A stretch of 64,000 nucleotides of DNA. Origin: Saprospiraceae bacterium. Its GTDB lineage: Bacteria; Bacteroidota; Bacteroidia; Chitinophagales; Saprospiraceae. The translations under genes and the position numbers were made by a program. Location: NCBI GenBank assembly GCA_025056735.1, contig JANWVR010000062.1:1-64000 (forward strand), in the 5' to 3' direction. A model generated the notes under the pieces. That model worked only from the letters and a program-made list of their open reading frames with translations, was not told where the DNA came from and did no database searches. Positions 13,446 to 53,230 of this stretch are shown here, in pieces (position 1 is the first letter of the stretch; each line of letters begins with the position of its first letter).

Positions 13446-14369
13446 TCACAGGCGCTCCCGCAATTGCTGAGCTTTAGCATAAAAGAGGTGCTCGGGCTGG
13501 CGCAGGATGACGTCGAGGGCGGAGTCTAAGGCGCTCTGGCGCTGGGGCATTTGCTTGAGGATGGCCAGCACAACGCCCCATTCGGCGCGCTGGGCATAGG
13601 GCTGCATGCGGCTGACGGCTATGCGCCGGAAGGCCATTTCGGCGTCGGCGTATTGGCCGTTTTTATAGTAGGCTACGGCTAAGAGTTCCTGTTGTTGCAC
13701 GTCGTCGGTGGTAGGCGCGGGCGTCAGTTCGGGTTTGAGAGCGTTGGTAACGTCCTGATAGCGACCCTCTTGCAGGTTTTTAAGGCCTTCTAAGTAGGTT
13801 TTGGAGCCGCCTTTAGCGCCGCGCGGGGGCAGGAAGTCGCGTTCGGCGAAGAAGTCGTCGGCGATGGCGGCGTAGTCTATAGCGGGACCATCGGGCTGCA
13901 TTTCTTCAATGGGTGCGGGTGGCAGTTCGTTTTGGGCCAGGTCGCGCTCGGGAGCAGCGCCGGGTTGTCTAGCGGGCTTTCGCCAGGCAGGCGGTTGCTT
14001 TTTGGGTTTGGGCTGTGTTTGCACGATGTCGGGTGGCGCAGGCGCTTCGGTCAGGCGGTCGCGCAGCAGCCAGTACCCGACGGCGAGGGCGGCTACGACA
14101 GCGGCGGCGCGCAGCGCCCAGGTGAGGGGGCGGATGCGAGCGCGCTTGGGTTGCAGTTGCTGAAGGAGTTCTGTCTCACGGTCCCAGGCGCGCATTTTAG
14201 CGCGCAGGTCTTGCTCGACGAGCAGCTCCAGGCCAATGCGCTCGACGCGATGCTGGCGCACTAAGGCGTCTAATTCAGCATCCTGAGCCATTTCAGCCTC
14301 GAAGGCGCGGCGCTCGTCGGGCGGCATTTTGCCGGTGAGGTATCGTTCTATTTGTTCGAAGCGAAGCAC
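13446..14369 (-). CDS. anti-sigma-factor-like membrane protein with tetratricopeptide-like C-terminal region
   Basis: N-terminal RYLTGKMPPDERRAFEAEMAQDAELDALV, central TM, TPR-like C-terminus; directly follows an ECF sigma gene. Confidence 0.65.
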   Translation of the reverse strand: MLRFEQIERYLTGKMPPDERRAFEAEMAQDAELDALVRQHRVERIGLELLVEQDLRAKMRAWDRETELLQQLQPKRARIRPLTWALRAAAVVAALAVGYWLLRDRLTEAPAPPDIVQTQPKPKKQPPAWRKPARQPGAAPERDLAQNELPPAPIEEMQPDGPAIDYAAIADDFFAERDFLPPRGAKGGSKTYLEGLKNLQEGRYQDVTNALKPELTPAPTTDDVQQQELLAVAYYKNGQYADAEMAFRRIAVSRMQPYAQRAEWGVVLAILKQMPQRQSALDSALDVILRQPEHLFYAKAQQLRERL

Positions 14370-14404: not shown

Positions 14405-15001
14405 TTACAAGCGGCGGTTTTCCAACAGGACAGCAAAAGCCGGGTTGTTTTGCAGCAATTCGCGAAAGCGCGTGCGGCAGCGGTAGGCTTCTTTTTTGGC
14501 CACATCGGCGCTGTTATAGTGCATGATTTGAGCGATTTCTTCCATGGAATGGTCCAGCTGATACAGGCGCAGGAGTTCGCGGCAGCGTTCGCCGATTTGT
14601 CCTAAAGCTTCTTGAAACAATTCGCGGTATTCGGTTCGGATGGCTTCGGCCTCTGGGCTTTCTACTTCGGCGTCGTAGTGGGCGGGTGAGAGGTCGGTGT
14701 AGCGGCCGTGTTGGCGTCGCACCGTTACCCAGCGCCATTTTGCGATGGCCACGAAGTAGGTGGTCAGCGCGCTGCGCGCCTCATAGCGCCCCTCGCGGAT
14801 GTTGCGGTCGAGGATCACTAACGCTTCCTGGAAGATGTCCTGGGCGTCCTGTCGAGAGCCGCCGTTTGCCATTACGTGTCGGATGACCGTTTCGCGCAAG
14901 CCCGGCATCAGGTACAGGCGTTTGAGCGCTTCTTCGCGCGCCGCTCCGCCTGCTCGAATGCCCGATACTAAGGCTTCATCGCTCCAATCGGTGTTTGCCA
15001 T
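14405..15001 (-). CDS. RNA polymerase sigma factor, sigma-70/ECF family
   Basis: QDAQDIFQEALVILDRNIREGRYEARSALTTYFVAIAKWRWV and C-terminal HTH CRELLRLYQLDHSMEEIAQIMHYNSADVAKKEAYRCRTRFRELL. Confidence 0.85.
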   Translation of the reverse strand: MANTDWSDEALVSGIRAGGAAREEALKRLYLMPGLRETVIRHVMANGGSRQDAQDIFQEALVILDRNIREGRYEARSALTTYFVAIAKWRWVTVRRQHGRYTDLSPAHYDAEVESPEAEAIRTEYRELFQEALGQIGERCRELLRLYQLDHSMEEIAQIMHYNSADVAKKEAYRCRTRFRELLQNNPAFAVLLENRRL

Positions 15002-15262
15002 GTTGATGCTGTTCGCGTGATGAGGGTAACCTGTGCAGATTAAAAAATGCGCACAAAAGTAACGCGCTTGCAGTCAGCGGACGTGCAGCCCTGGCCGTGT
15101 TCCGGGCAAAGCCCAGCTGTTACGCGAGTGCGGGGGGCCTGATGCTCCATGCCCAGGTATAGGCCTCCTTTTTCCTTGCGGCGGCGCAGGGCGGCTTGAC
15201 CGCGCAAAGCCAGTTTCTGCGTTCGCAGATTTTTATGGATGTTTGCTTTAAATTCGCGCCTT

Positions 15263-16828
15263 ATGCAGCACTACCCAATTGGCAAACAGGAGTTTGAGGT
15301 CATTCGTCGAAACGGCTTCGTTTACGTGGACAAAACCCGGTGGGTCTATCAGCTGGCTGCGCGCACCTCGCAGTACTTCCTCAGCCGCCCGCGGCGCTTT
15401 GGCAAATCGCTCTTTCTCTCTACGCTCAAAAGCCTGTTCAGCGGCGACCGCAGCCTCTTCAAAGACCTGTGGATCGAACCCTACTTAGCGGAAATTGAAC
15501 AGCGACCGGTATTGCACATATCCTTCAACGACATTAGTCATAGAACGCTGGGATTGGAAAACGCCTTGCGCAAGGCCATGCAAGACATCGCCCGAGAACG
15601 CCAGCTGAAATTGAGTAATATGGGAGCGTACGACACGCATTTCCTCGAAATCATTACTCAAATGGCTGCCGAGCGCCCCATCGTCCTCCTTATTGACGAA
15701 TACGACAAACCCATTATTGACTACCTCAACGATGTGCCTCAAGCCGTCGCCAACCGGGACATCCTCAAATCTCTCTTCTCGGTGCTCAAGGGCGCCGAAA
15801 TCCACATCCACCTCCTCTTTATCACCGGCGTCTCCAAATTCAGCAAAGTCTCCATCTTCTCCGACCTCAACCACCTGCAAGATATCTCCATGGAAGACGC
15901 CTATGCTACCATGCTCGGCTTTACCGCCGAAGAAGTGCACACCTATTTTGCCCAACGCATTCAGCAAATCGCTCAGCAGCACCAACTCGACGAAAATGCC
16001 TTGTGGGAAAAAATCCGACTCCATTACAACGGCTATTCCTGGGACGGCAAAAATTACGTTTATAACCCCTTCTCGCTGCTGAGCTTCCTGCAAAGCGGCG
16101 CCTTCAACAATTATTGGTTTGAAACCGGCACGCCCACTTTCTTAGTCGAGTACGTGCGACGGCAACGACCGCCTGAAGCCATCGAAGGCACAGTCGTCAA
16201 CAAGGGCATCTTTAACCGCTTCGACTTCGAGAACCTCGACGTCATCGCTGCCATGTTCCAGACCGGGTACCTCACTATCCAGAAAGCTGAAGGCAGCGGC
16301 ATGGACGCCTGGCTCACCCTCGGTTACCCGAATGCCGAAGTGCGCTACTCGTTCGAGCAACACCTGCTGAGCCATTTTGCTGCACAACCACCCACCTCCG
16401 TCAGCCACCAGCTGTACGCCCTACGAAAGGCCCTCGACCACCTCGACCCTGACGCCTTTGTGGCCCATCTGAAAACCTTCTTCGCCGCCATACCCTTCGA
16501 CGCGGCTCCGCCCAACAGCCGCCCGCCTCAAACCTGGGAAGGCTTCTTCCAGGCCCTCACCTTCCTGCTCCTGCGCGCCTTAGGGCTCGACGTGCAGGCA
16601 GAGGTGGCCTCCGCCAAAGGACGCTCCGACGCTGTGGTGCGCTTGCCTGGCAGCATCTGGGTCATGGAATTCAAACTCGGCTCGGCCCAAAGCGCCCTGC
16701 GGCAAATCCAACGGCAGGGATACGCCGAACCTTACCTGCACGCCGGAAAACCGCTGATCCTGCTGGGGCTGGGCTTCGACGCCAACGCCCGCAACGTGAA
16801 AAACCACAAGTGGGTGCGCATCGGGTAA
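15263..16828 (+). CDS. AAA-ATPase-like domain / PD-(D/E)XK nuclease domain protein
   Basis: YPIGKQEFEVIRRNGFVYVDKTRWVYQL..FLSRPRRFGKSLFLSTLKSLFSG (Walker A), VLLIDEYDKPI (Walker B), C-terminal GRSDAVVRLPGSIWVMEFKLG nuclease-like motif. Confidence 0.88.
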   Translation: MQHYPIGKQEFEVIRRNGFVYVDKTRWVYQLAARTSQYFLSRPRRFGKSLFLSTLKSLFSGDRSLFKDLWIEPYLAEIEQRPVLHISFNDISHRTLGLENALRKAMQDIARERQLKLSNMGAYDTHFLEIITQMAAERPIVLLIDEYDKPIIDYLNDVPQAVANRDILKSLFSVLKGAEIHIHLLFITGVSKFSKVSIFSDLNHLQDISMEDAYATMLGFTAEEVHTYFAQRIQQIAQQHQLDENALWEKIRLHYNGYSWDGKNYVYNPFSLLSFLQSGAFNNYWFETGTPTFLVEYVRRQRPPEAIEGTVVNKGIFNRFDFENLDVIAAMFQTGYLTIQKAEGSGMDAWLTLGYPNAEVRYSFEQHLLSHFAAQPPTSVSHQLYALRKALDHLDPDAFVAHLKTFFAAIPFDAAPPNSRPPQTWEGFFQALTFLLLRALGLDVQAEVASAKGRSDAVVRLPGSIWVMEFKLGSAQSALRQIQRQGYAEPYLHAGKPLILLGLGFDANARNVKNHKWVRIG

Positions 16829-17088: not shown

Positions 17089-17817
17089 ATGAAAAACCGC
17101 GTATTGCTTCTGGCCGCTTTTGTTCTGATTTCCATGAATGCCGCTTTTGCCCAATTGAGCGGTATTGGCTTTCGCCCGATGGCGACGTTTTCCACCTATA
17201 AGCTTTCGCAAGACCTGAACGACAACTACGACAGCTACCTGCGTCTGGGCGGGGGCGGCGCGTTGTTTGCCGAGTTCAATTTGGGCAGCCGCTTCACCTT
17301 CCAGCCCGAGGTTGTCTATGTGCAGCGCGGAGCCAACATCAAGAGCGAGAGCCGACTGTACTGGGACGGCCACCACTTTGGCTACCCACGCGACTACCGG
17401 GTGAACGAGATTCGCCAGCAGGAGACGCTGCATTACATTGACATCCCGCTCATGTTTGAGAAAAACTTTGGCGGCGGCAACGTAGGCGCTTATGTGGCTT
17501 TTGGCCCGGCCATCTCCTTTGCTATTGCCAACGGCTCGGGCCGCGAGGAACTGTTTGTATCGCACCTGAACTCCGAAGGCAAGCAGACGTCGTTCACCGA
17601 CCGCAAGGAATACATCATCGAGATGGGCAAAGGCCGCAACGACGACTACCGCAAGGGCGACTTCAGCGTCAACCTCGGCACGGGGCTGGTGCTCATCTTA
17701 GACAAGGGCGAAATTGGCCTGGATGTGCGCTATTCCCACGGGCTTCGCAACATTGACATCAGCGGCATCAAGAACCGCACGCTGCAGGTCGGCCTGTCCT
17801 ACATGCACTACTTCTAA
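17089..17817 (+). CDS. outer-membrane beta-barrel protein (PorT-like family)
   Basis: Signal peptide MKNRVLLLAAFVLISMNAAFA; barrel-like pattern; PLMFEKNFGGGNVGAYVAFGPAISF; terminal aromatic. Confidence 0.75.
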   Translation: MKNRVLLLAAFVLISMNAAFAQLSGIGFRPMATFSTYKLSQDLNDNYDSYLRLGGGGALFAEFNLGSRFTFQPEVVYVQRGANIKSESRLYWDGHHFGYPRDYRVNEIRQQETLHYIDIPLMFEKNFGGGNVGAYVAFGPAISFAIANGSGREELFVSHLNSEGKQTSFTDRKEYIIEMGKGRNDDYRKGDFSVNLGTGLVLILDKGEIGLDVRYSHGLRNIDISGIKNRTLQVGLSYMHYF

Positions 17818-17899
17818 TCGCCACCTCCCGGCGTTCGCGCAGGCGCGCGGCTTTTCCCTTCACCTTCAGGCTCTTATCGTCAAAACCACCCTTTGTGCT

Positions 17900-18163
17900 A
17901 TGTGCTGTCCGAATTGCGGCCATGCCGCCCAGGCCCACTACACGCGCTGCCGCCACTGCAACTACAAGCTACCACAGACGGCAACGCCCGGCGCTGCTCC
18001 AGCTGCAGAGGTCATTGCCTGCTGGAACTGCGCCGCGCCAAACCCGGCGCACCACAGCCGCTGCGCCTGCTGCAACGCCCGATTAGAAGATGCTCCGGCC
18101 CAACGCCGCACCCATTCGATCACCTCAAACGCTTACCGCCATGGCCAACCACAAGAGCGTTAA
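17900..18163 (+). CDS. small double zinc-ribbon protein
   Basis: MCCPNCGHAAQAHYTRCRHC...CWNCAAPNPAHHSRCACC: two CxxC-x10-CxxC modules; 3' end overlaps the next CDS start. Confidence 0.6.
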   Translation: MCCPNCGHAAQAHYTRCRHCNYKLPQTATPGAAPAAEVIACWNCAAPNPAHHSRCACCNARLEDAPAQRRTHSITSNAYRHGQPQER

Positions 18164-19022
18164 CCCGATGTTCCTCTCCGCCTTAGACATCCTGACCGGC
18201 GCGCTGGGCGTGTTCATCGTGCTCAACTTCCTCAACACGCGCATGATGGGTACCGGGCCGCACACGCCAACGCCACCCATCGCTCAGCAAACGACTGAAA
18301 AAAAGGAGAAGGAAAAAACACAGCCCCACAAGCCGACGCCGCAGCGCCGCCCACAGCCAGAACAGCGCCCGACGCCGGCGCCCAAACCCACACCTGCTGT
18401 TGCGGAAAAGCCGCAACCCAAACCCGAGACGACGGCGCCCGAGCCGAAACCCGAGCCCGCAGACCCACTACCGCCCGCACCGCCGCAAGACCCTGTAGCC
18501 GTGGACTTGATGAAGCAGACCAAAGGCGATGTAACCCTCCTGCTCCAACAGGAAGGCGTGGCCAAACAAAGCGTCGAGTTCATGCTCAAACAGGGCAATC
18601 AGGTGTGGAAACCCGGACGCGCCGGCAAGTACCAGACCGACGACTTCCAATACGAGAAGAGCCTGAACTACTTCTATCAGGCGCGCATCAAGCCCGGCCG
18701 TTACGAAGTGTGGGTGCGCGTCAAGAAACGCACCAACGCCTCCGGGCAACAACCCTTCGCCCTGTACGGCAAGATCGTGCAACCCGGCTACCGCAGCATC
18801 ACGCACAACTTCGGCGCCTTCGCCACCTCCAGCAGCGAATGGACGCTCGCCGGCACGCTCACCATTCTGAACAACGCGCTCAACTACCAGTCGGCGCTGC
18901 CGCCCGCAGCAGCGGCTAAACCTGCCGACGATGCCGCACCCGCGCCGCCGGCTCCTGCAACGCCTACTCCCACTAACTCACCTCGACCTGAACCCAAACG
19001 CAGCGGCAAATGGGGCCGCTGA
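18141..19022 (+). CDS. single-TM protein with ExbD/MotB-like TM helix, Pro-rich TonB-like linker and C-terminal beta domain
   Basis: MANHKSVNPMFLSALDILTGALGVFIVLNFLN (Asp in TM), long Pro/Lys/Glu linker, C-terminal YFYQARIKPGRYEVWVRVKKRTNASG... Confidence 0.7.
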   Translation: MANHKSVNPMFLSALDILTGALGVFIVLNFLNTRMMGTGPHTPTPPIAQQTTEKKEKEKTQPHKPTPQRRPQPEQRPTPAPKPTPAVAEKPQPKPETTAPEPKPEPADPLPPAPPQDPVAVDLMKQTKGDVTLLLQQEGVAKQSVEFMLKQGNQVWKPGRAGKYQTDDFQYEKSLNYFYQARIKPGRYEVWVRVKKRTNASGQQPFALYGKIVQPGYRSITHNFGAFATSSSEWTLAGTLTILNNALNYQSALPPAAAAKPADDAAPAPPAPATPTPTNSPRPEPKRSGKWGR

Positions 19023-19090
19023 TGCGCGCGGCGCATTCAACACCGCTTTTCTTTCTCTTTCATTCGCTCACTCAAAAGCATTCCAACGCC

Positions 19091-19909
19091 ATGTTTGCTC
19101 AAAAAAATAGCCACATCGCATACAGCTTCGGCCTGACGGCCATCGTGCTCGCCATCGTCGCTGCCGGTTACTACATGTCGCCGGTGGGCTCCTTCGCCGA
19201 GACGCTCTTCTTTGCGCTGGGCGGCAAAATGCCCGAAGGCCTCATCCAGGGAGCGATTTACTTCTGCTTCTTCACGGCCATCTTCGGCGTCAATGCACTG
19301 ACGACCCGGCTGCGCCGCGAGCAGTACGCCTTCACGGCCCGCCTGCTGCCCGAAACGGAGCAGTACGTGCTGTACCCCGAAGACGTCAACCAGATCAAAC
19401 TGAACACCATCGAAGTGGAGCGCCACTTGGGCCAGAGCATCGTAACCGACCTTATCAAGCAGGCGGCCACCAAGTTCCGCGCCAGCCATTCGCCCGCTGA
19501 AGCGTTAGCCATGGTGGAAACGGTGAGCGACATGCACCGCAAATCGTTTGAGCGCGAGTTCTGGGTGGTGAATACCTGCCAGACCCTCATCCCGGCTTTC
19601 GGCTTTCTGGGTACGGTGCTGGGCATGGCCGCCGCCATTTTAAACATGGGCAAGGTGCAGCCCACGGCTCAGGCCGCGCCCTCCATGGGTACGGTTGCTG
19701 CCGCTGTGCCGCAGGCCACGATCAGTACCGCCGATATCTCGACGCTCATTGATAGCCTCGGCACAGCTTTCTTCACCACCATCTTAGCCATCGTGCTGGG
19801 CATCGTCGTGAGCGTGGTAGTCAAGCGCTTAGAAACGCGCGTAGAGGACTTCCTCACCGGCAGCAAGCGCTACGTTGTCGAGAATTTAGTGAACCGCATT
19901 CATTTGTGA
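19091..19909 (+). CDS. MotA/TolQ/ExbB-family proton channel protein
   Basis: TLIPAFGFLGTVLGMAAAILNM and IDSLGTAFFTTILAIVLGIVVSVVVKRLE match TolQ/ExbB TM2/TM3 signatures. Confidence 0.85.
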   Translation: MFAQKNSHIAYSFGLTAIVLAIVAAGYYMSPVGSFAETLFFALGGKMPEGLIQGAIYFCFFTAIFGVNALTTRLRREQYAFTARLLPETEQYVLYPEDVNQIKLNTIEVERHLGQSIVTDLIKQAATKFRASHSPAEALAMVETVSDMHRKSFEREFWVVNTCQTLIPAFGFLGTVLGMAAAILNMGKVQPTAQAAPSMGTVAAAVPQATISTADISTLIDSLGTAFFTTILAIVLGIVVSVVVKRLETRVEDFLTGSKRYVVENLVNRIHL

Positions 19910-19932
19910 TCGTTGTATTGCCTGACCAACCG

Positions 19933-19968
19933 ACGGCGCCCTCCTTGCAGAGCGGCGCCGTTTTTTTT
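19933..19968 (+). terminator. rho-independent terminator
   Basis: ACGGCGCC/GGCGCCGT 8-bp stem followed by T8, 24 nt after the ExbB-like stop codon. Confidence 0.9.
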
Positions 19969-41344: not shown

Positions 41345-42838
41345 TCAATCCGCTTTTTCGTGCAGATAGCTGTTGCCCTTAGGCCGTATTTCAGCTTTGT
41401 CGCCTTCGATGGAGATCGTCAAGTCCGACATTTCCCGGGCATTAGCTTCAGGCACCTCGTCGAGTTTGATGCCCTGGCGTAGGTAGGCGGGCTGGTTTTC
41501 CAACTCGATGATGGTTTGCGGCGAGTTGAGCTTGATAGGATTGACCTGGCGATTTTGCGCCTCTTGTCGGCGGCGTTGCGCTTCGATAAGGCGCTGGTGG
41601 CGTTCTTCGGGCGTCGGTTCGGGGGCGGGGACACAGTCTGGCTTCACAAAGGGCTCGTCCGATTTGGGCCGAGCGCTGTCCACGGTAGCGCGCACGCTGT
41701 CGAAATCGAACTCGATGGTGGGCGCCTTTTTCGACTCAGTCGGCTCCTCTTCCACCTGGCCGGTGATGGTGGCCAACGAAGGTTTGGGCGCGTCTTCGTC
41801 TAAGTGCAGCATTTGTTTGATCCCATTAGACGCCGGCGTTTGCAGGCGCGCAGCAGCAGCAGGCACCTGCGGCGTCTTGCGCGAGGCCTCGAAGCCAGTG
41901 GCAATAATGGTTACGCTGATCTTTTCGCCCAGACGCTCGTCGAAGCAGTTGCCCCAGATAAGGTTGGCGTTTTCGCCGGCCTCTTGCTGGATGAACTCGG
42001 TGATCTCGAAAATTTCATCCATAGTGGCCTCTTTTGTGCCAGAGGTAATGTTGACCAAAATGTTTTTTGCGCCGAAGATGTTGTTGTCTTCGAGCAGGGG
42101 CGAGTTGAGGGCTTCGTCCACGGCGCGGCGCGCGCGGCCTTCGCCTTCAACGGCGGCGGTGCCCATGACGGCCACGCCGGAACCGCGCATGACGGTGTTG
42201 ACATCCTCGAAGTCTACGTTGACATAACCAGGCACAGTAATGATTTCAGCAATGCCTTTAGCAGCCGTGCACAGGATGCTGTCGGCCTGCGCAAAGGCCG
42301 ATGAGACGCTCATATTGCCGTAAATCAGGCGCAATTTGTCGTTGCTGATGACCACTAAGCAGTCCACGTTTTTGCGCAATTCCTCCAAGCCCTCGTAGCC
42401 GTTGTTGACGCGAGTGCGCCCTTCAAAGGAGAACGGCAGAGTAACAATGCCCACGGTGAGGATGCCCATTTCCTGGGCCGTCTTGGCGATGATGGGCGCT
42501 GCGCCGGTGCCTGTGCCGCCGCCCATTCCGGCGGTAATGAAGACCATCTTGGCGCCATTGTCTAAGAAGCGCTTGATTTCTTCGATGCTTTCCATGCAGG
42601 CGCGCTTGCCAATTTCGGGCTTGCTGCCCGCTCCCCGGCCTTCGGTGAGGCTAGCGCCCAAAGGGATTTTCACCGGTACAGGGCTGAGACTCATGGCTTG
42701 TGCGTCGGTGTTGCAAATGGCGTAGTCCACGCCGATGATGCCCTGTTTGTACATGTACGTGACGGCATTCGAGCCACCGCCGCCCACGCCAATGATTTTT
42801 ATGATAGAAGGCTCTTCTTTTCTTAAATCAAACAACAT
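41345..42838 (-). CDS. ftsZ: cell division protein FtsZ
   Basis: GVGGGGSNAVTYMY; MGGGTGTGAAPIIAKTAQEMGILTVGIVTLPFSFEG. Confidence 0.98.
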   Translation of the reverse strand: MLFDLRKEEPSIIKIIGVGGGGSNAVTYMYKQGIIGVDYAICNTDAQAMSLSPVPVKIPLGASLTEGRGAGSKPEIGKRACMESIEEIKRFLDNGAKMVFITAGMGGGTGTGAAPIIAKTAQEMGILTVGIVTLPFSFEGRTRVNNGYEGLEELRKNVDCLVVISNDKLRLIYGNMSVSSAFAQADSILCTAAKGIAEIITVPGYVNVDFEDVNTVMRGSGVAVMGTAAVEGEGRARRAVDEALNSPLLEDNNIFGAKNILVNITSGTKEATMDEIFEITEFIQQEAGENANLIWGNCFDERLGEKISVTIIATGFEASRKTPQVPAAAARLQTPASNGIKQMLHLDEDAPKPSLATITGQVEEEPTESKKAPTIEFDFDSVRATVDSARPKSDEPFVKPDCVPAPEPTPEERHQRLIEAQRRRQEAQNRQVNPIKLNSPQTIIELENQPAYLRQGIKLDEVPEANAREMSDLTISIEGDKAEIRPKGNSYLHEKAD

Positions 42839-42897
42839 GGCGTTGAAAAATTTAAAAGGTGAACAAACAACACCGCTTCGGAGACCGGAGCAGAGTT

Positions 42898-44220
42898 TTA
42901 CTTTTTAAAATCAATATCAGGTTCGGCTTCGAACCACTCTTTCGTTTTGCGCAGGACGTTGTCCAACCAGCTGGACGACTTCTCCTCCGAGACGTTGGAC
43001 GGCCCTTTGGGCCCGGAGGCAGTCTGCGTTTCAGCGAGTCTTTCCTGACGGCGGATGTCGTCTAATCCTCTGATCATCAAGCCTATACCCGTGCTAAAAA
43101 TGGGGCTATTGACGCTTTCGCGATAGCCATGGGCTAAGTGCTCGACAGGCAGGCCGATGCGGCAGCTCATGCCGGTGTGCAGTTCGGCCAACTTGTCAAC
43201 GTGCTGCAGCAGCGCTCCACCTCCAGTGAGCACGATGCCGCCGATGAGTTTGCGGTCGTAGCCGCTGCGGCGGATTTCCCACAGGACATAGTCGAAGATC
43301 TCCTCCATGCGCGCCTGGATGATGCGCGCCAGGTTCTTCTCACTGATTTCCTTGGGTTCGCGCCCGCGCAGCCCCGGAATGGTGATGATGCGGTTGTCGT
43401 ACACCTCCGAAGCCAGCGCCGAACCGAAGCGCACTTTGAGCTTTTCGGCCTGCGGTTGCAACACCGTGCATCCTTCCTTGACGTCGGCAGTAACGACGTT
43501 ACCGCCAAAAGGAATGACGGCGGTGTGCCGGATGATGTTTTCATGAAACACGGTGATGTCGGTCGTGCCGCCGCCAATGTCCACCAAGGCGACTCCGGCC
43601 TGGCGCTCTTCTTCGTAGAGCACAGCTTCGGCGCTGGCAATGGGTTCCAGCGTCAGGTCGGCCACCTTCAGCCCCGCCTTCTCGATACAGCGGTATAGGT
43701 TGTTGATGGCCGTCATCTGGCCGGTGATGATGTGGAAATTGGCCTCCAGCCGCACGCCGCACATGCCGATGGGGTCGCTGATGCCCTGCTCGTTGTCCAC
43801 CGTGAATTCCTGCGGGAACACGTGAATGATCTTGTCGCCCGGCGGCAAGACGAGTTTGAACATGTCGTTGACCAACCGGTCAATATCGCGACGCGAAATC
43901 TCGGTATGGTCGTTTTCGCGCGTCAGTATGCCGCGATGCTGCAGGCTTTTGATGTGCTGACCAGCAATGCCAACATAGACGGTGTGAAATTTCATACCGG
44001 CCTGCCGCTCGCAGATGTCCACCGCTTCGCGGATGGCATTGACGGTTTTTTCAATGTTGCTAACAACACCGCGCAAAACGCCGGTGCTTTCGACTTTTCC
44101 TACGCCCAGGATTTCGAGCTTTCCATGTGCGTCCCGACGCCCGGCCAGACAGCACACTTTGGTGGTGCCAATGTCGAGGGCTACGACCACATCGTGGGTT
44201 TGTGGCGCTAATTCGGTCAT
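42898..44220 (-). CDS. ftsA: cell division protein FtsA
   Basis: VVALDIGTTKVCCLAG; GVALVDIGGGTTDITVFHE; GGIVLTGGGALLQHV. Confidence 0.97.
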   Translation of the reverse strand: MTELAPQTHDVVVALDIGTTKVCCLAGRRDAHGKLEILGVGKVESTGVLRGVVSNIEKTVNAIREAVDICERQAGMKFHTVYVGIAGQHIKSLQHRGILTRENDHTEISRRDIDRLVNDMFKLVLPPGDKIIHVFPQEFTVDNEQGISDPIGMCGVRLEANFHIITGQMTAINNLYRCIEKAGLKVADLTLEPIASAEAVLYEEERQAGVALVDIGGGTTDITVFHENIIRHTAVIPFGGNVVTADVKEGCTVLQPQAEKLKVRFGSALASEVYDNRIITIPGLRGREPKEISEKNLARIIQARMEEIFDYVLWEIRRSGYDRKLIGGIVLTGGGALLQHVDKLAELHTGMSCRIGLPVEHLAHGYRESVNSPIFSTGIGLMIRGLDDIRRQERLAETQTASGPKGPSNVSEEKSSSWLDNVLRKTKEWFEAEPDIDFKK

Positions 44221-44295
44221 GGTGTGCAAAGGTTACGTGAGAGAATAAGGTTCCTGCCATTATAGTCCTTTGCACCCTTCCTGTATTCCCGAGCA

Positions 44296-44303
44296 CAAAG
44301 GTA
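44296..44303 (-). promoter_or_regulatory. Bacteroidetes -7 promoter element TACCTTTG upstream of ftsA
   Basis: CAAAGGTA on + strand in the ~146-nt AT-rich gap between ftsQ and ftsA. Confidence 0.6.
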
Positions 44304-44365
44304 CTGTTTTGTTATTGTTGAAAAACATTTTTTTATAAAAAACTTCATAGAAGCCTGTTTTTGTC

Positions 44366-45160
44366 TTACTGCCGACAGACCACCTGGCCGCCGTATTTGA
44401 GTGAAATTGTCTGGTACTTGCGCCAGCCCGCATAGGGCATGCCTTCTTGATAGAAAATTTTCAGGCGCTTCAATTTATCTTCTATATTTCGCAAACTGCC
44501 CAGCACAATTTTCTGGTCGCCAATAAGCGGAATGAGCATGAACTCTCCCGCCTGATTGAGGTGTATTTGCTGGATAAACACTGACCATACTGGGTCGCTT
44601 TGCAACAGAAGCGCCAGTTGAAAGGCGTCTTTTAGCGTGTTTTTCTTTTTGGTTAAAAAGTCTGGTGCGTATGGCGCTATGTTGCCCGTTGCCACCAGCA
44701 CGCGCGGCGTGTGGAGCGATGAAAACGGCATCATAGCGCCGGTTTTGTCTAAATAATAATTACCGCCATTATTATCCAATATGCGCAACAATGGTTCGCG
44801 CTGTTGCACGCGAATGTGCAACTCGTTGTCCTGCGAAACATAAGCATCCGCATCCGCCACAAACGGATCCTCCTCTACAACCGTCTCAACGCGGTGCAAA
44901 TCCAGCCCGCCCACCTCGGTGCTGCGCAGGGTATTGCCAAAAGCCAACACCAATCGCTGGCGTACTTCGCGTTCGCTCAGCAAGCTCGCTCCACTTTCTA
45001 AAGGACGGATGTCAACCTGTATTTCTGAAATAAAATCGCGCTGCCGACGCGATACTGACGACAACAGGATGAGCACTACAATCAACAGAAAAAGCCACAG
45101 CGCAATGCGCTCATATCGGATAGGCGGCAAGCGATAATTGAGTAAATCAGAGAGACGCAT
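44366..45160 (-). CDS. ftsQ: cell division protein FtsQ-like (POTRA)
   Basis: Single TM, position between murC and ftsA, FtsQ-like YLDKTGAMMPF and FQLALLLQSDPVWSVFIQQI. Confidence 0.85.
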   Translation of the reverse strand: MRLSDLLNYRLPPIRYERIALWLFLLIVVLILLSSVSRRQRDFISEIQVDIRPLESGASLLSEREVRQRLVLAFGNTLRSTEVGGLDLHRVETVVEEDPFVADADAYVSQDNELHIRVQQREPLLRILDNNGGNYYLDKTGAMMPFSSLHTPRVLVATGNIAPYAPDFLTKKKNTLKDAFQLALLLQSDPVWSVFIQQIHLNQAGEFMLIPLIGDQKIVLGSLRNIEDKLKRLKIFYQEGMPYAGWRKYQTISLKYGGQVVCRQ

Positions 45161-45173
45161 GGCGAGGTTATTT

Positions 45174-46541
45174 TTATGGGTTTAATTGTTGAGCAATAGG
45201 TTTCACTAAGGCGTCAATATCGCCTGCGCCCATCGTGAGTAGCACTTCGGGCCGACGGTCTGCCAAGCAGCGCAACAGGCCTTCTTTGTCTGTCAGGCGT
45301 CTGTCGGCTAAGTTCATTTTATCAAAGATCAGTTCTGAGCTGACACCGGGTATTGGCTGTTCGCGAGCCGGGTAGATGGGCAACAGGTAGCAGGTATCCA
45401 ATTCGTCCAAAGCCTCGGCAAAGGCATCGGCAAAGTCGCGCGTTCTCGAATAGAGGTGGGGCTGAAAGACACCCGTGATTTTCTTGTCCGGGAAGAACAT
45501 GCGCGCGGCCTGCACGGTGGCGCGTATTTCCGCGGGGTGGTGTGCGTAGTCATCCACATAAACCAAGTCGGGTCGGCGCACGATGTACTCAAAGCGCCGC
45601 CGGACGCCTTGAAACTTCTCTAAAGCACTCATGTGCCGGATCATCCAGATGTCGGCCGTAGCAGCGGCCATCCAGGCGGCTAAAGCGTTTTCCACATTGT
45701 GGCGCCCGGGCAGGGGCATTTGCAAGCGATAGAGCTCGAACTGGTCGCGCGCATGGATATTGAAAACCATGTAGCCGTCCTGGACGTGCAAGTCGGAGGC
45801 CTGGCAGTTCCCTACGCCGATGCCGAAAGTGAAGGCGCGGCGTCCGCTTTGGCGCAGCTCCTCCGCCACGCCATCCAACGGGAGGCCGTACTTGTAGAAA
45901 AGCGTGCCGCCTCGTTTAATCTGCCGGGCAAACTGGAGGTATGCTTCCACCACGGCTTCGGGCGAGCCGTAGATGTCTAAATGGTCGGGGTCGAGTGAGT
46001 TAATGACGGCGATTTCCGGCTCCAGATGCAGGAATGAGCGGTCGTACTCGTCGGCCTCCACGACCACCCAATCGCTGTTGCCCAGCAGGAAGTTGGAATG
46101 GAAATTGACGGCGATGCCGCCCAAAAAGGCGGTGATGTCGTGCCCGGCGCTGTGCAATAGCCAGGCGACGAGCGACGAGGTGGTCGTCTTTCCGTGTGTG
46201 CCCGCAATGGCGATGCACCGTTTGCCGCGGCTGATAAGACCCAGCACTTCGGCCCGTTTCATCACCGGGTAGCCGCGTTGGCGCAGCCAGACCAATTCTG
46301 CGTGGTCGGTGGGCACGGCGGGCGTCCAGACGACTAAGTCCACCCGTTCCGGGATCTGGCAGACGTCCTCTTCGTAATGAATGCGCATTCCTTCGGCCGC
46401 CAGCGCGCGCGTCAGATCGGTCTCGGTGCGGTCGTATCCGTGCACCTCAGCGCCCAAATGGCGGAAATAGCGCGCTAAGGCCGACATGCCGATGCCGCCG
46501 ATGCCGATAAAATAGACCGTTCTGACGTCTGCCAATGTCAT
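45174..46541 (-). CDS. murC: UDP-N-acetylmuramate--L-alanine ligase
   Basis: VYFIGIGGIGMSALARYF; IAIAGTHGKTTTSSLVAWLL; start MTLADVRT. Confidence 0.96.
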   Translation of the reverse strand: MTLADVRTVYFIGIGGIGMSALARYFRHLGAEVHGYDRTETDLTRALAAEGMRIHYEEDVCQIPERVDLVVWTPAVPTDHAELVWLRQRGYPVMKRAEVLGLISRGKRCIAIAGTHGKTTTSSLVAWLLHSAGHDITAFLGGIAVNFHSNFLLGNSDWVVVEADEYDRSFLHLEPEIAVINSLDPDHLDIYGSPEAVVEAYLQFARQIKRGGTLFYKYGLPLDGVAEELRQSGRRAFTFGIGVGNCQASDLHVQDGYMVFNIHARDQFELYRLQMPLPGRHNVENALAAWMAAATADIWMIRHMSALEKFQGVRRRFEYIVRRPDLVYVDDYAHHPAEIRATVQAARMFFPDKKITGVFQPHLYSRTRDFADAFAEALDELDTCYLLPIYPAREQPIPGVSSELIFDKMNLADRRLTDKEGLLRCLADRRPEVLLTMGAGDIDALVKPIAQQLNP

Positions 46542-46554
46542 AGTTTGAGAGGGT

Positions 46555-47700
46555 TTAAGAGGTTTGAGCGTCGTGTTGGGTGTCGTTTTCGCACAGGCGC
46601 AACGCCTCTCGGGCGATGGCCTCGGCGGCGTCGGGGCGAGCGAAGGTTTGAATATTTTCGCGCAGGACGGCCTGGCGCTGCGGATCGTCAAGCAGGGCCA
46701 GCGCCTCATTCAGGAGGCGCCCAGCGGCCTGCGCATCGGGCACGAGCAGGGCTGCGTTGCGTTCTGCGAGCGCCTGAGCATTGCGCGTCTGGTGGTCTTC
46801 GGCCACATTGGGCGACGGCACGAGGATAGCTGGCTTGCCCACCACTGCTAACTCACTGATGGTCAGCGCACCCGCGCGAGCGATGACCACGTCGGCAGCG
46901 GCGTAGAGCAGGTCCATGCGCTCGATGAAGGGCCGCAATTGCACATTGGGCAGCCGGGCCGTCGCGCAGTCGCGGTAGTGCGTTTCGTAGTAGCGCCCGC
47001 ACTGCCACAGCACCTGCACATCCGGGCGTTGGGCCAACCGGTCGGCGCCCTGCGCCATGGCCTCGTTGAGCGTGCGCGCGCCTAAACTGCCGCCCACGAC
47101 AGCCAGCGTCTTGCGGCCTTCGGCCAGACCATAAAAGGCCAGCCCTTCAGCGCGCTTCGCCGCAGCACCGACCAGGTCAGCGCGCACCGGATTGCCGGTA
47201 AAGACCACGCGCCCAGCCGGGAAGTAGCGCTCCATGCCCTTGTAAGCCACGCAAACGCGTTGCGCCCGGCGCGCCAGCTGCCGGTTAGCAATGCCGGCAT
47301 ACGAGTTGGCCTCGTGAATGAGCGTAGGTACCCCCAAACGCTGGCTCACGCGCAGAGCCGCCCACGACGCATAGCCGCCCGTGCCAATGGCTACATCTGG
47401 CCGGAAATCGCGCACAATGCGCCGGGCCGCCCGCCAGCTGCGCCACAATTTGAAGGGCAGCGCCAGATTTTGCCGCAGGCTGCTCCACGAAAAACCGCGC
47501 TGCAAACCCGCTATGTCAATACCCACAATGCGATAACCCGCCTGCGGAATGCGCTCCATCTCCATGCGCCCATTGGCCCCCACGAACAAAAACTCCGCAT
47601 CCGGCCGCAAGCGCCGCAGCGCATCGGCAATAGCTACGGCCGGAAAGATGTGCCCTCCCGTACCGCCACCGCTCACCAGTATGCGAAGTTGTTGACTCAT
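46555..47700 (-). CDS. murG: undecaprenyldiphospho-muramoylpentapeptide beta-N-acetylglucosaminyltransferase
   Basis: ILVSGGGTGGHIFPAVAIADAL; VVGGSLGARTLNEAM; ARAGALTISELAVVGKPAILVPSPNVAEDHQTRNA. Confidence 0.97.
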   Translation of the reverse strand: MSQQLRILVSGGGTGGHIFPAVAIADALRRLRPDAEFLFVGANGRMEMERIPQAGYRIVGIDIAGLQRGFSWSSLRQNLALPFKLWRSWRAARRIVRDFRPDVAIGTGGYASWAALRVSQRLGVPTLIHEANSYAGIANRQLARRAQRVCVAYKGMERYFPAGRVVFTGNPVRADLVGAAAKRAEGLAFYGLAEGRKTLAVVGGSLGARTLNEAMAQGADRLAQRPDVQVLWQCGRYYETHYRDCATARLPNVQLRPFIERMDLLYAAADVVIARAGALTISELAVVGKPAILVPSPNVAEDHQTRNAQALAERNAALLVPDAQAAGRLLNEALALLDDPQRQAVLRENIQTFARPDAAEAIAREALRLCENDTQHDAQTS

Positions 47701-48845
47701 GACTTGACCACAGTATCTAATTTTTCAATGTAACGCGACACGCTCAGAATAATGCCCACCGATATAGCGCTGAATACCAGACTGGTACCGCCCTTCGAGA
47801 TAAACGGCAGCGTCAGACCCGTCGTCGGTACTAAATGCACCGACACCGCGATATTGGCCATGGCCTGAATAGTGATCATCAAGCTCAAGCCAATGGCCAG
47901 GAAAGCACCAAAAACCTTGGGACTTCGCGTAACAAGCACTACCGTCCGGAAAAACAGCAGCACGTACAGTCCTAACACAGCCAACCCGCCCAGCAGGCCG
48001 TACTCTTCGCAAATAATGGGAAAAATGAAGTCGTTCTGCGAATACGGCAGGTAATTGCGCGAAATCGAGTTGCCCGGCCCTACGCCCAACAAGCCCCCGC
48101 GCGCAATAGCAATTTTGGCCTGTTCCACCTGGTAGCCGCCATTTTCGTCGTGCAAAAAAGTGTTTACCCGGCTGACCCACGTCTCCACGCGCACCACCTC
48201 GGGCGCGTAACGACCAATAGCGATGAGCAACGCCAGCGTTACCACGCCCAACAGAATGAGCAACAGGATGTACTTGTAGTGCACCCGCCCAATAAACATC
48301 AGCACCAAACAGGTGAAAAATAAAATGGCCGCCGTCGAGAGGTTGGCCGGCGCTATCAGCCCACATACGAGAATGACCGGCACAATGATGGGCATGAAGG
48401 CCTCCTTGAACGACTTGATGTAGTCCTGCTTCTTCGTCAGCTGCCGCGCTACGTAAATGACAAGCGCTATTTTGGCCATATCCGAAGGCTGAAAGCCAAA
48501 AGGCAAAAAGGGCAATTCTACCCAGCGCGAAGCGTCGTTGACGCTTTTGCCATAGGCGAGTGCGTAAACAAGCAGTGGTGCCGATAGAGACAACATCCAG
48601 ATGCCCAGCTGTTGATAGCGCCGATAGTGGATGCGATGACATATATACACCAGCACCAGCGCCATGACTATGTGAAGAAAGTGGTTGATGAAGTACGAGG
48701 TTGTGCTATCGGTACGCCCCTGCCAGGTCAGCGCACCAGCCGTGGAATACACCGCCAGCAGGCCGGTGAAACTCAGCAAGAACACGACCATCCATATGGC
48801 GCGGTCGCCTTTTATCTGGGTAGCAAATCGTTGCACGAAAAACAT
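47697..48845 (-). CDS. ftsW: FtsW/RodA/SpoVE family glycosyltransferase
   Basis: Multi-TM, GGLLGVGPGNSISRNYLPYSQNDFIFPIICEEYGLLGG; 4-bp overlap with murG. Confidence 0.95.
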   Translation of the reverse strand: MFFVQRFATQIKGDRAIWMVVFLLSFTGLLAVYSTAGALTWQGRTDSTTSYFINHFLHIVMALVLVYICHRIHYRRYQQLGIWMLSLSAPLLVYALAYGKSVNDASRWVELPFLPFGFQPSDMAKIALVIYVARQLTKKQDYIKSFKEAFMPIIVPVILVCGLIAPANLSTAAILFFTCLVLMFIGRVHYKYILLLILLGVVTLALLIAIGRYAPEVVRVETWVSRVNTFLHDENGGYQVEQAKIAIARGGLLGVGPGNSISRNYLPYSQNDFIFPIICEEYGLLGGLAVLGLYVLLFFRTVVLVTRSPKVFGAFLAIGLSLMITIQAMANIAVSVHLVPTTGLTLPFISKGGTSLVFSAISVGIILSVSRYIEKLDTVVKS

Positions 48846-48852
48846 AAGGCGT

Positions 48853-50229
48853 TCATTTTGTGGTTTTCTGAATGAGTTGAAGCACGGCCTCTCGAAACTG
48901 GTTGCCGCGGTCTTCGTAGTTTTTGAACAAATCGAAGCTGGCGCATGCCGGGCTGAGCAACACCGTATCGCCTGGCTGACTCAACCGCGCAGCGGCGGCC
49001 ACGGCTTCAGCGGCACTGCGGGCCTCCACGATGGGCTTGCCCAACGGCTGGAAGGCGTGGATCAACTTGCTGTTATCGGCGCCGAGGAACACCAGCGCAC
49101 GCGCCTTGTCGCGCACGAGCGGCAGCAGAGGCGTGTAGTCGTTGCCCTTGTCGGTGCCGCCCGCTATCCAGATCACCGGCGTTTGCATGGCCTGCAGCGC
49201 ATACTGAGCAGCGTCCACGTTGGTGGCCTTGCTATCGTTAATCCAGGTAACATCGCCTACCCGGGCGACCCATTCCATGCGGTGCGCCGGCGGTGTGTAA
49301 GTGCGCAGACCTTCCTGCACCTTGTCCGGAGCAGCCTTCAGCACGGAGGCGATGTTGACCGCGAAAAGCGCATTCATGGCGTTGTGTGGCCCGATGAGAC
49401 GGCTTTCGCGCAGGTCAAATTGCCGTTGACTGCTGATGCACAGCCGTCCGTCTCGAATATTCCGCGGGTGCAGCGACAACACCGGCGCGCCGTTCCAGCG
49501 CGGATGGCGCGTCATGTAGTCCACGGTTACTGGGTCGGCGGCGTTGTATAGGAAAAAATCGCGAGGGCCCTGGTTTTCGCGGATGCGAAACTTGGCCGCT
49601 GCATAGCGTTCCATACTGTAGCCGTAGCGGTCTAAGTGGTCGGGCGTGATGTTGAGCAGCGCGGCCACTTTGGGTTTAAAGCGGTCAATATCTTCTAACT
49701 GGAAGCTGCTCACCTCCAGCACATAGATGCGCGAGTAGCCGGCGTTGCCCTCTTTCAGATGCTGGGCAACGAGCTCAGCGAAACTGTTGCCCACGTTGCC
49801 GGCCAGGTGCGCATCCAGGCCGGCCGTGCGCAGCAGGTGGTGCGTCAGCGTGGTCGTGGTGGTCTTGCCGTTCGTGCCCGTAATGGCCACTACTCTGCAC
49901 CGCTTGATGAAGCGGTAGGCAAATTCAATCTCTCCAATGATAGCGATATTCTCCGCACGAAAACGCTTCAAAATGGGCGCATCCTGCGGAATACCCGGGC
50001 TTTTGATGACCATGCGCGTCCAGTCTATGCCCCGGCGGCCCAGCAGCCACGACAGCGTATGCCCTCCACCCTCGTAGGGAATGCCCGCATCTTCCAAACG
50101 CTTGCGATACTCCGGCTTTATCTCGCCCGCATCCGACACCCGTACCTCATAGCCCAACTGCTGGGCCAGCAGCGCCGCCCCTACTCCGGACTCGCCCGCA
50201 CCAAGAACGGTAATGTGCTGTCTACTCAT
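48853..50229 (-). CDS. murD: UDP-N-acetylmuramoylalanine--D-glutamate ligase
   Basis: ITVLGAGESGVGAALLAQQLG; AITGTNGKTTTTTLTHHLL; WINDSKATNVDA. Confidence 0.97.
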   Translation of the reverse strand: MSRQHITVLGAGESGVGAALLAQQLGYEVRVSDAGEIKPEYRKRLEDAGIPYEGGGHTLSWLLGRRGIDWTRMVIKSPGIPQDAPILKRFRAENIAIIGEIEFAYRFIKRCRVVAITGTNGKTTTTTLTHHLLRTAGLDAHLAGNVGNSFAELVAQHLKEGNAGYSRIYVLEVSSFQLEDIDRFKPKVAALLNITPDHLDRYGYSMERYAAAKFRIRENQGPRDFFLYNAADPVTVDYMTRHPRWNGAPVLSLHPRNIRDGRLCISSQRQFDLRESRLIGPHNAMNALFAVNIASVLKAAPDKVQEGLRTYTPPAHRMEWVARVGDVTWINDSKATNVDAAQYALQAMQTPVIWIAGGTDKGNDYTPLLPLVRDKARALVFLGADNSKLIHAFQPLGKPIVEARSAAEAVAAAARLSQPGDTVLLSPACASFDLFKNYEDRGNQFREAVLQLIQKTTK

Positions 50230-50232
50230 CGT

Positions 50233-51486
50233 CTATCGAATTTTAAGCGTGATGACCGCCAGAACGGCCAGCAAAATTTGCACAATCCAGAAGCGCACCG
50301 AAATGGTTACCTCATGGTAGCCCTCCTTTTGAAAATGGTGATGCAAAGGCGCCATTTTGAAAATGCGACGGCCCTCGCCGTATTTCTTTTTGGTGCGTTT
50401 GAAATACCACACCTGCAAGATGACCGACAGGTTTTCCACCAAAAACACACCGCACAAGATGGGAATCAGGAGCTCCTTGCGCAGCACAATCGCTAAGGCC
50501 GCAATAATGCCGCCCAGCGTCAGACTGCCCGTATCGCCCATGAACACACGCGCCGGAAACACATTGTACCATAAAAAACCAATGCAGCCGCCCAACAGGC
50601 AGGCCGAAAACACCACCAGCTCCGCCGTGTGCGGCAGGAAGAGAATTTTCAAATAATCGGCTGCCACCGCGTTGCCGCTCAGGAAAGCCATGATGCCCAG
50701 CGACATGATGACAATGGCCGAAACGCCCGCCGCCAGCCCGTCCAAACCGTCGGTCAAATTGGCGCCGTTGCTCACCGCTGCAATGACAAATACCGTCATG
50801 AGCAGGAAAACGATCCACACCAATCGCCCGGCATTGTCGCCCAAAAACCACAGCAGGCGCGAGTAGTCCAGCTCGTTGTTCTTAAAAAACGGCACGTTCG
50901 TAATCGGCGCCTTCACATGCGCCAGCTCCTTGTACGTATCCGGGCCGGTCTTTACATAGACGTACTTTTTGATTTCGTAGCCGTGTTGCAGAGCCTTTTC
51001 CGGCTCCATGCGCACCACCACGTCGTCGCTGGCCAGCATGGTGATGCCCACAATCAGGCCGAGGCCCACCTGGCCGAGAATTTTGAAAATGCCCTTCAGG
51101 CCTTTTTTGTCTTTTTTGAATACCTTGATGTAGTCGTCCACAAATCCAATGGCTCCCATCCAGAGCGTGGCCGTGACCATGAGCAGGATGTACACGTTGT
51201 CTAAGCGCGCCAGCAGCAAGCACGGCACCAGCGTGGCCGCAATGATGATGATGCCGCCCATGGTCGGCGTGCCTGCCTTGAGGTTCTCGCCCTGAAGCCC
51301 CAGATCGCGCACCGTCTCGCCAATCTGCCGACGCCGCAGCACGTCAATGATCCGCCTGCCGATGACCAAGGAAATGAGCAGCGACAAAATCATAGCCGCG
51401 CCCGCCCGAAACGAGATAAACTGGAACAACCCCGCCCCCGGCAGGTCAGTCGTCTCAGATAGCCATTGAAAAAGGTGGTAAAGCAT
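50233..51486 (-). CDS. mraY: phospho-N-acetylmuramoyl-pentapeptide-transferase
   Basis: KAGTPTMGGIIII; GFVDDYIKVFKKDKKGL; NLTDGLDGLAAG; APLHHHFQKEG. Confidence 0.97.
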   Translation of the reverse strand: MLYHLFQWLSETTDLPGAGLFQFISFRAGAAMILSLLISLVIGRRIIDVLRRRQIGETVRDLGLQGENLKAGTPTMGGIIIIAATLVPCLLLARLDNVYILLMVTATLWMGAIGFVDDYIKVFKKDKKGLKGIFKILGQVGLGLIVGITMLASDDVVVRMEPEKALQHGYEIKKYVYVKTGPDTYKELAHVKAPITNVPFFKNNELDYSRLLWFLGDNAGRLVWIVFLLMTVFVIAAVSNGANLTDGLDGLAAGVSAIVIMSLGIMAFLSGNAVAADYLKILFLPHTAELVVFSACLLGGCIGFLWYNVFPARVFMGDTGSLTLGGIIAALAIVLRKELLIPILCGVFLVENLSVILQVWYFKRTKKKYGEGRRIFKMAPLHHHFQKEGYHEVTISVRFWIVQILLAVLAVITLKIR

Positions 51487-51520
51487 CTATAAAAATGAAA
51501 AAATCAAGTTTCCCGTAACC

Positions 51521-51603
51521 GCCAAACTCGTTTGGCGAAGTAACGGCCAAACTTGTTTGGCCCTGTAACCGCCAAACTTGTTTGGCGAAGTCTTGTTTGG
51601 CCG
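51521..51603. repeat. palindromic repeat array 3 (GCCAAACTTGTTTGGC, opposite orientation)
   Basis: Units at 51521-51536 (CTCG loop), 51546-51561, 51571-51586, exact 25-bp period; half unit ~51592-51603. Confidence 0.92.
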
Positions 51604-51661
51604 AAAAATGCCGGGGCGATCTTCCATCGCCCCCGGCGTTGTCCAAAAAATAGTCCCTCCA

Positions 51662-53230
51662 CTATTTTTCTTTAGTGTAGTTGCTGTCGGCATCCTCGCC
51701 GACAGCCCGTTTCTGCTCTTTTGAGTCGCTGCTGGCGCTTTTGCCGGCGGCGTGCCCGGATGATTGTCCTGTCAGATACTGCTGCAGGACGAGTTTATCG
51801 TCGAAAGCGTGTTTGACTCCGTTAATTTCCTGGTATTTTTCGTGTCCTTTGCCGGCCACCAAGATGATATCGCCGGGTTTGGCCATGAGGCAGGCCGTTT
51901 TAATGGCCTGCTCGCGGTTTTCAATAGTGAGCGTGTGGTTGAGGTCGTCGGAGGTGAGGCCGGCTTCCATGTCTTGCAGGATGGCACGCGGGTCTTCGGT
52001 GCGCGGGTTGTCGCTGGTCAGGATGGCGTGGTCGCTCATTCGGGCGGCGATTTGCGCCATGAGCGGGCGTTTGGCGCGGTCGCGGTTGCCGCCGCAGCCC
52101 ACGACGGTGAAGATGCGGGCGGGGTGTCGGCGCAGTTGTCGGATGGTTTCCAGCACGTTTTGCAGCGCGTCGGGCGTGTGGGCATAATCCACGATGCCGA
52201 TGCGGGGCGGTTGGCTGTTGTCTCGCAAGATTTCAAAGCGGCCTTCGGCGCCGGTCAGGTTGCTCAGGGCCGTCAGGACGGTTTCTTTTTCGATGCCTAA
52301 GAGGCTGGCGACGGCATAGGCTGCGGTGAGGTTGTAGGCGTTGAAGGCGCCCACCAATCGGGTGTGCAGCTGGACGCCGTCTATTTCTAAGTGCAGGCCT
52401 GTCAGAGCGTTGTCCAGCACTCTAGCTTTGAAATCGGCCGGCGTTTTGAGCGCGTAAGTATAGCGGCGGGCGTGGGTGTTTTGCAGCATGAAGGCGCCGT
52501 TGCGGTCGTCGGCGTTAGTCAGGGCAAAGGCCGAGGGCGGCAGGTCGTCGAAGAGTTGCTTTTTAGCGTTGCGGTAGTTGGCGAACGTGCCGTGGTAGTC
52601 TAGGTGGTCGTGCGTCAGGTTGGTAAACACCGCTCCGGCGAAGTGGACGCCGGCGATGCGGCGCTGGTGGATGGCGTGGCTGCTGGCTTCCATGAACACT
52701 TCGGTGCAGCCGGCGTCGGCCATCTGGCGCAGCAGGGCGTGCAGGCTGACGGCGTCGGGTGTGGTCAGGGCGCTGGGCATGACCTGTTGGCCGATGCGGT
52801 TTTCCACCGTGCCGACGAGGCCGGCCTTGCGGCCTAAGGCGGTGAAGAGCTGATGCATCAGCGTAGTTGTCGTCGTCTTGCCGTTGGTACCCGTAACGCC
52901 TACGACGCGCATGGAGTGCGAGGGGTAGCCATAAAATGCCGAGGCTAAATGCCCCAGCGCTTCGGCCGCGTTCTGAACGGTTACAAAGGCCAGTAGCGGC
53001 GGGCGCTCCAAACCTTCTGGCCAATACTCGGCCACTACGGCGACAGCACCGCGCTCCAGCGCCTGGCCGATGAACTGATGCCCGTCCGCCGATACGCCGC
53101 GTACGGCTACAAAGCAGTCGCCCGCCTCCACGCGCCGGCTGTCGGCCTGAATGGCGCGCACCTCAGTGTCCGCCGTATGGACGGCCATCTGCACTCCAGG
53201 CACTCGGTTCAAAAGCGTTTCCAACAGCAT
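51662..53230 (-). CDS. murE: UDP-N-acetylmuramoyl-L-alanyl-D-glutamate--2,6-diaminopimelate ligase
   Basis: VVGVTGTNGKTTTTTLMHQLF; FTNLTHDHLDYHGTF; LTSDNPRTEDP (meso-DAP specificity motif DNPR). Confidence 0.97.
   Translation of the reverse strand: MLLETLLNRVPGVQMAVHTADTEVRAIQADSRRVEAGDCFVAVRGVSADGHQFIGQALERGAVAVVAEYWPEGLERPPLLAFVTVQNAAEALGHLASAFYGYPSHSMRVVGVTGTNGKTTTTTLMHQLFTALGRKAGLVGTVENRIGQQVMPSALTTPDAVSLHALLRQMADAGCTEVFMEASSHAIHQRRIAGVHFAGAVFTNLTHDHLDYHGTFANYRNAKKQLFDDLPPSAFALTNADDRNGAFMLQNTHARRYTYALKTPADFKARVLDNALTGLHLEIDGVQLHTRLVGAFNAYNLTAAYAVASLLGIEKETVLTALSNLTGAEGRFEILRDNSQPPRIGIVDYAHTPDALQNVLETIRQLRRHPARIFTVVGCGGNRDRAKRPLMAQIAARMSDHAILTSDNPRTEDPRAILQDMEAGLTSDDLNHTLTIENREQAIKTACLMAKPGDIILVAGKGHEKYQEINGVKHAFDDKLVLQQYLTGQSSGHAAGKSASSDSKEQKRAVGEDADSNYTKEK

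Follow-up and report, generated by a model that had tools for sequence, protein, structure and literature searches.

A putative proton-driven envelope system of Saprospiraceae in which the axle protein may itself be the periplasmic effector

Four consecutive genes in a 64,000-nucleotide stretch of a Saprospiraceae genome (hereafter the window) raise the question of whether they jointly encode an envelope machine driven by the proton-motive force (PMF) and, if so, whether that machine belongs to a system already described. In order of transcription their products are an outer-membrane barrel (OMP), a double zinc ribbon (ZnR), a protein with a single transmembrane (TM) helix that we consider as the candidate axle or transducer (D), and a putative channel subunit (B). 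A sequence-only reading had taken the set for an uncharacterised PMF-driven envelope system, a designation that the present analysis supports, energy coupling and the outer-membrane target being the parts that we infer.

The set lies on contig 2 of a 3.74-Mb genome given as 100% complete, and all four plus-strand coding sequences were confirmed at the starts that the earlier reading had assigned (Table 1). When we compared the window with three relatives (loci L110–L112), third-codon positions dominated the differences in all four genes—the counts against L110, the nearest relative (B 93% identical), being 8/0/44 for OMP, 3/5/14 for ZnR, 23/12/96 for D, and 21/6/81 for B at the first, second, and third positions, respectively—so that each of the four is a genuine coding gene on which purifying selection acts. 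The terminator postulated after B was likewise found as a hairpin folding at −21.5 kcal/mol, followed by the T run, though a simple consensus scan for terminators did not list it. The last 23 nt of the ZnR gene in the window are shared with the beginning of D; throughout the window clade the overlap is 11–35 nt, which suggests coupled translation. Between the barrel and the zinc ribbon, for their part, there is a weak hairpin, and the two may therefore not share one transcript. The membership of the barrel, previously doubted, is upheld by the joint occurrence of barrel, ZnR, D, and B in 39 loci.

Table 1. Features of the four-gene set and of its upstream neighbours in the window (class I: loci with the same gene arrangement as the window).
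Feature	Coordinates	Strand	Properties
Membrane protein with TPR-like part	13446..14369	-	307 aa; adjoins the sigma-like gene and is conserved together with it
Sigma-70-like (ECF-type) factor	14405..15001	-	198 aa; PF04542 7e-5, just under cut-off; divergent neighbour of the set
AAA-ATPase_like + PDDEXK_9 protein	15239..16828	+	between the sigma-like gene and the barrel
Barrel (OMP)	17089..17817	+	242 aa; signal peptide; PF13568 OMP_b-brl_2; same-strand barrel near D in 39/39 class I loci
Double zinc ribbon (ZnR)	17900..18163	+	87 aa; four CxxC; no signal peptide; four-CxxC ORF at the same place in 39/39 class I loci
D, axle/transducer candidate	18141..19022	+	293 aa; short cytosolic N-terminus; TM helix 10-35 with Asp16; Pro/Lys-rich linker; beta-sandwich ~131-251; Pro-rich tail
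B, MotA/TolQ/ExbB-type channel subunit	19091..19909	+	272 aa; four hydrophobic helices; Thr175 and Thr230; PF01618 E=1.2e-12
Intrinsic terminator	19932..19968	+	hairpin, z -4.0, then a run of T

By its sequence B is a member of the MotA/TolQ/ExbB superfamily, as had been claimed, since its match to the Pfam family MotA_ExbB scored 48.2 bits against a cut-off of 22.9. Thr175 and Thr230 are invariant in 80/80 proteins, and when B was aligned by profile with the ExbB proteins of the same genome (E 6.6e-6, across the two pore helices), each of them was in register with a pore threonine. The best PDB sequence matches were MotA chains (6ysl, E 0.002).

D possesses the single N-terminal TM helix with an invariant Asp that characterizes the pore helices of MotB, ExbD, and TolR: Asp16 lies inside the helix, in agreement with the earlier description, and was kept in 70/70 proteins. 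In the AlphaFold model that one helix is followed by a low-confidence disordered linker up to residue ~127 and then by the beta domain. The absence of a normal ExbD or MotB body was equally borne out. The window D had no match in Pfam, ExbD was not among the Pfam matches of 22 D members, and an OmpA-like peptidoglycan-binding domain was absent from both the Pfam results and the beta-domain model; nor was there a Pfam match to the C-terminal domain of TonB or TolA, the weak TonB-model hits in two members being well above E 0.01. The label of an ExbD/TonB-like hybrid accordingly fails as a statement of homology, because the likeness to stators is confined to the TM/Asp part, the beta-sandwich at the C-terminus being a separate fold. 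The beta domain was modelled with a pLDDT of 89.5 and a pTM of 0.84 in the Dyadobacter soli relative, and had no significant match in the PDB by sequence or fold, the best Foldseek match (E 0.009) falling among MSCRAMM/Ig-like sandwiches with TM scores of about 0.3–0.4. An early guess that this head was YfaP/DUF2135 was dropped, the Pfam hints of Y_Y_Y, PPC, and DUF2135 being too weak.

The barrel (OMP_b-brl_2, E=4.8e-17) is of a generic family. A contact between it and D is proposed on grounds of economy: no other exported protein accompanies the D-B pair at every class I locus, and the barrel is hence the simplest candidate for an outer-membrane partner. The zinc ribbon (DZR, 1.3e-5, just under the cut-off) is probably cytosolic, as it lacks a signal peptide. 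Some of the small zinc ribbons of class I, such as those of L048, L176, and L187, end in RAG, KAG, RVG, or KTG—that is, in Arg/Lys-Ala/Val/Thr-Gly—which ending is not present in that of the window. A larger double zinc ribbon protein (~327 aa), absent from the window, lies directly 3' of B in two close relatives, L107 (10066–11049) and L112.

A check of co-occurrence across genomes had been named beforehand as one of two refutation tests, and the genes did recur together. Our scan of GTDB genomes yielded 80 named loci, many from draft MAGs, whose genes were called by a simple codon-usage script instead of Prodigal. Outside the window, 39 loci from Saprospiraceae, Lewinella, Dyadobacter, and other taxa carry the set with its gene order unchanged, at protein identities down to about 25–30%; because close relatives inflate the locus count, those identities and the spread from Saprospiraceae to Spirosomataceae outweigh the number 39. 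D directly adjoined B on the same strand in 69/80 loci. The other 11 comprised three cut by contig ends, seven with a zinc-ribbon gene upstream of B and no adjoining D (three of these with visible kinase motifs), and one (L126) in which the script called no B. Among 299 genomes of the order, D and B occurred together in 25 of the 32 having either (hypergeometric P ~ 3e-29, with genomes counted rather than independent events); of the seven exceptions, six were in genomes less than 91% complete and the seventh (G033) was a weak partial hit. Relatives of B were found in 21/150 genomes of the family, 27/299 of the order, and 6/396 of the phylum, our own genome being counted each time; the distribution is therefore patchy and fairly rare. 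In one related family D is beside a PP2C gene and away from B, a strong B still being present in 13/16 such genomes. The D-like proteins of that family (L090, L092–L095, L097–L100, L102–L104, and L109) are longer, at ~400–690 aa, have the same TM motif, and are mostly encoded beside a divergent PP2C gene at a distance from B.

The claim of an uncharacterised set stands as regards its conservation, and is to be corrected in that a wider family exists in at least three versions, of which the set represents one and others include some tied to kinase/phosphatase signalling. The 39 loci of class I have the barrel, the zinc ribbon, a D with the beta-sandwich, and B; in most of them the initial gene calling overlooked the small ZnR gene, which a CxxC search then recovered. 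In class II (12 loci) the D-B pair is accompanied by a Ser/Thr kinase, an FHA protein and/or a PP2C, and often by a zinc ribbon, labels that for kinase, PP2C, and FHA are motif-based and were confirmed for Odoribacter laneus by Pfam matches to DZR, Pkinase, FHA, Trypsin, and PP2C_2; L183, which the tree script grouped with class II, is cut by a contig end, cannot be classed, and was left out of the 12. Thermaurantimonas has a class II set with a vWA domain on D. In class III (17 loci, mostly of Bdellovibrionota) B precedes D, and D ends in a vWA domain. On the B tree, a quick tree with SH-aLRT values only, class I does not form one clade, but is distributed among the window clade (13 labelled rows on a long branch), L123/L136, and a large Saprospiraceae-Dyadobacter clade apart, so that the class I arrangement is either old or was assembled more than once. 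Two further arrangements were observed in the kinase-bearing loci. In L055 (3489–6034, minus strand) two tandem beta-domain proteins precede B, and the second of them has no TM-Asp helix but begins in the manner of a signal peptide; two kinases and an FHA protein come next. This arrangement is reminiscent of the 'heterologous pairs' of the TPH-vWA proteins. In the Odoribacter laneus cassette (L129, 8725–10353, plus strand) an FHA domain is fused to a trypsin-like protease domain, and the FHA protein of L125 looks similar at its C-terminus. In the available text on KKP kinase–phosphatase modules, considered as a parallel to class II, no stator is described, the mention of 'MotA' there being of phage T4 MotA in a reference.

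As to the surroundings of the set, the membrane protein next to the sigma-like gene is anti-sigma-like by position only. A divergent sigma-like homologue occurs upstream of the barrel at nine of the 12 named class I loci of the window clade (L110, L111, L114, L116, L117, and L119–L122), and the pair may therefore regulate the set; since similar pairs occur elsewhere in these genomes, that association is only suggestive. The gene at 15239–16828 looks like an insertion, for it is absent in L110 and L111, where the sigma-like gene and the barrel adjoin. Elsewhere in the window (41345–57410, minus strand) there is a division and cell-wall cluster, with FtsZ-, FtsA-, and Mur-like proteins recognized by eye, for which we claim no link to the set.

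Taking these results together, we consider it rather probable that the four genes encode a proton-driven trans-envelope machine in which the axle protein serves directly as effector in the periplasm, with the barrel of the same set as its probable target. From what is known of 5:2 motors, a ring of B around the pore helices of D would be expected to turn proton flow into motion. B would form that ring, by analogy a pentamer, in the inner membrane, and D would give the pair of pore helices, whose Asp16 would ferry protons past the ring of Thr175 and Thr230, with D turning or tilting as they pass. Both the proton flow and the 5:2 stoichiometry are here assigned by analogy with motors of that class, as reviewed in the available text of PMC9389320. 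Because the locus lacks ExbD/TolR as well as TonB/TolA, D would act as axle and arm at once, by the same logic as that proposed for TPH-vWA proteins in the accessible part of PMC12204202: its flexible Pro/Lys-rich linker and beta-sandwich would reach into the periplasm and there exert a pull on, or reshape, a partner in the outer membrane, for which the barrel is the likeliest candidate. The zinc ribbon would stay in the cytosol and probably dock on or gate the motor, a position that in relatives is taken by Ser/Thr kinase, FHA, and PP2C proteins; such a role for it is a guess.

The TM Asp of D together with B would, taken alone, also fit an ion channel or a sensor rather than a force generator. 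B-D might be mainly a sensor of the PMF or of the state of the envelope, gating a cytosolic response through the zinc ribbon without outer-membrane force being the point, a reading that we regard as unlikely. The class II relatives, in joining D-B to Ser/Thr kinases, FHA proteins, and PP2C, speak for it, as does the sigma/anti-sigma-like pair diverging from the set of the window clade; yet no kinase, PP2C, or FHA motif was found in the genes neighbouring the class I loci, and the pore residues are strictly kept. An action of such kinases on the window copy was rejected, the genome being without a match to Pkinase (PF00069) or PP2C_2 (PF13672).

The nearest published idea, as far as the available text of PMC12204202 (Mol Biol Evol 2025) extends, is that of the TPH-vWA motor-inserted force transducers, in which TolQ-like genes are paired with vWA proteins having a TM helix with an ExbD-type Asp, no ExbD/TolR being nearby. 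The set might then be that already proposed kind of transducer with a swapped C-terminal domain, which we judge improbable. The set shares the design of a TolQ-like ring subunit and a single-TM Asp partner with its own periplasmic domain and no ExbD/TolR beside it, and the Bdellovibrionota relatives have B-D(vWA) pairs of the published kind; the D of the window, however, carries a beta-sandwich and no vWA domain. Moreover, the published family, as described in that text, is mainly one of Proteobacteria and Verrucomicrobia with mostly heterologous pairs, and no barrel, zinc ribbon, kinase, or PP2C is described there, whereas our set is from Bacteroidota, conserves a barrel and a zinc ribbon, and has kinase/PP2C versions among its relatives. 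By its head domain the set is thus not TPH-vWA, while common descent, the two having been compared by description only, may apply. A search of the literature for ExbB with PP2C, FHA, or a zinc ribbon, or for DUF2135, found nothing relevant within its partial coverage, so that a description elsewhere is possible.

It is very improbable that the set represents one of the known systems (Tol-Pal, Ton, GldLM/PorLM, or Zorya) in divergent form, since the weak profile matches of B to TolQ (5e-5), MotA (6e-4), and ZorA (5e-5, 37 residues), which point that way, are far below the curated cut-offs where such cut-offs exist, and the set has no ExbD, TonB, TolA, Pal, GldM, or ZorC/D partner, the body of D matching none of them. 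The contention that the genes are not GldLM, TolQRA, ExbBD-TonB, or ZorAB therefore held, in that Pfam, NCBIfam, and PADLOC assigned neither D nor B to a named system above cut-offs; ordinary ExbBD/TolQR, GldLM, and Zorya were rejected on those searches. With ExbBD-TonB the set shares the B family, the pore Thr and Asp, and a Pro-rich linker as in TonB, but not ExbD or the TonB C-terminal domain; furthermore, the genome holds three separate ExbB-ExbD-TonB clusters elsewhere, so that the set is not its Ton system. The large cytosolic stretch between the helix pairs of B and the MotB-like TM/Asp of D recall the flagellar stator MotAB, from which the set differs in the lack of the peptidoglycan-binding domain on D. 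GldLM/PorLM, the Bacteroidota stator of the T9SS and gliding, resembles the set in having an axle protein that doubles as periplasmic arm; B, in contrast, is a four-helix MotA/ExbB-type protein, and the NCBIfam GldL and GldM models had no match in the set at E up to 1. From Zorya, with its stator-like A subunit, the set differs in having neither the ZorA tail nor the peptidoglycan-binding ZorB body, and in a ZorA match that is short of full length.

We would tentatively go further and propose a distinct stator class, partly phospho-regulated and not yet described, in which the axle is the effector, the heads are exchangeable (beta-sandwich or vWA), and so is the control (ZnR and barrel, or Ser/Thr kinase, FHA, and PP2C). 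The known stator systems driven by protons are few, and their tasks are fundamental ones: they power flagella, nutrient uptake, constriction of the outer membrane, gliding, or phage defence. If our proposal is true, the set would add a new stator with a novel periplasmic arm and a built-in outer-membrane partner, with sister versions joined to Ser/Thr kinases, and the system would be present in free-living and gut Bacteroidota as well as in Bdellovibrionota. Its testing is already possible in carriers available in culture, namely Dyadobacter soli, D. beijingensis, Flavilitoribacter nigricans, Membranihabitans maritimus, and Odoribacter laneus.
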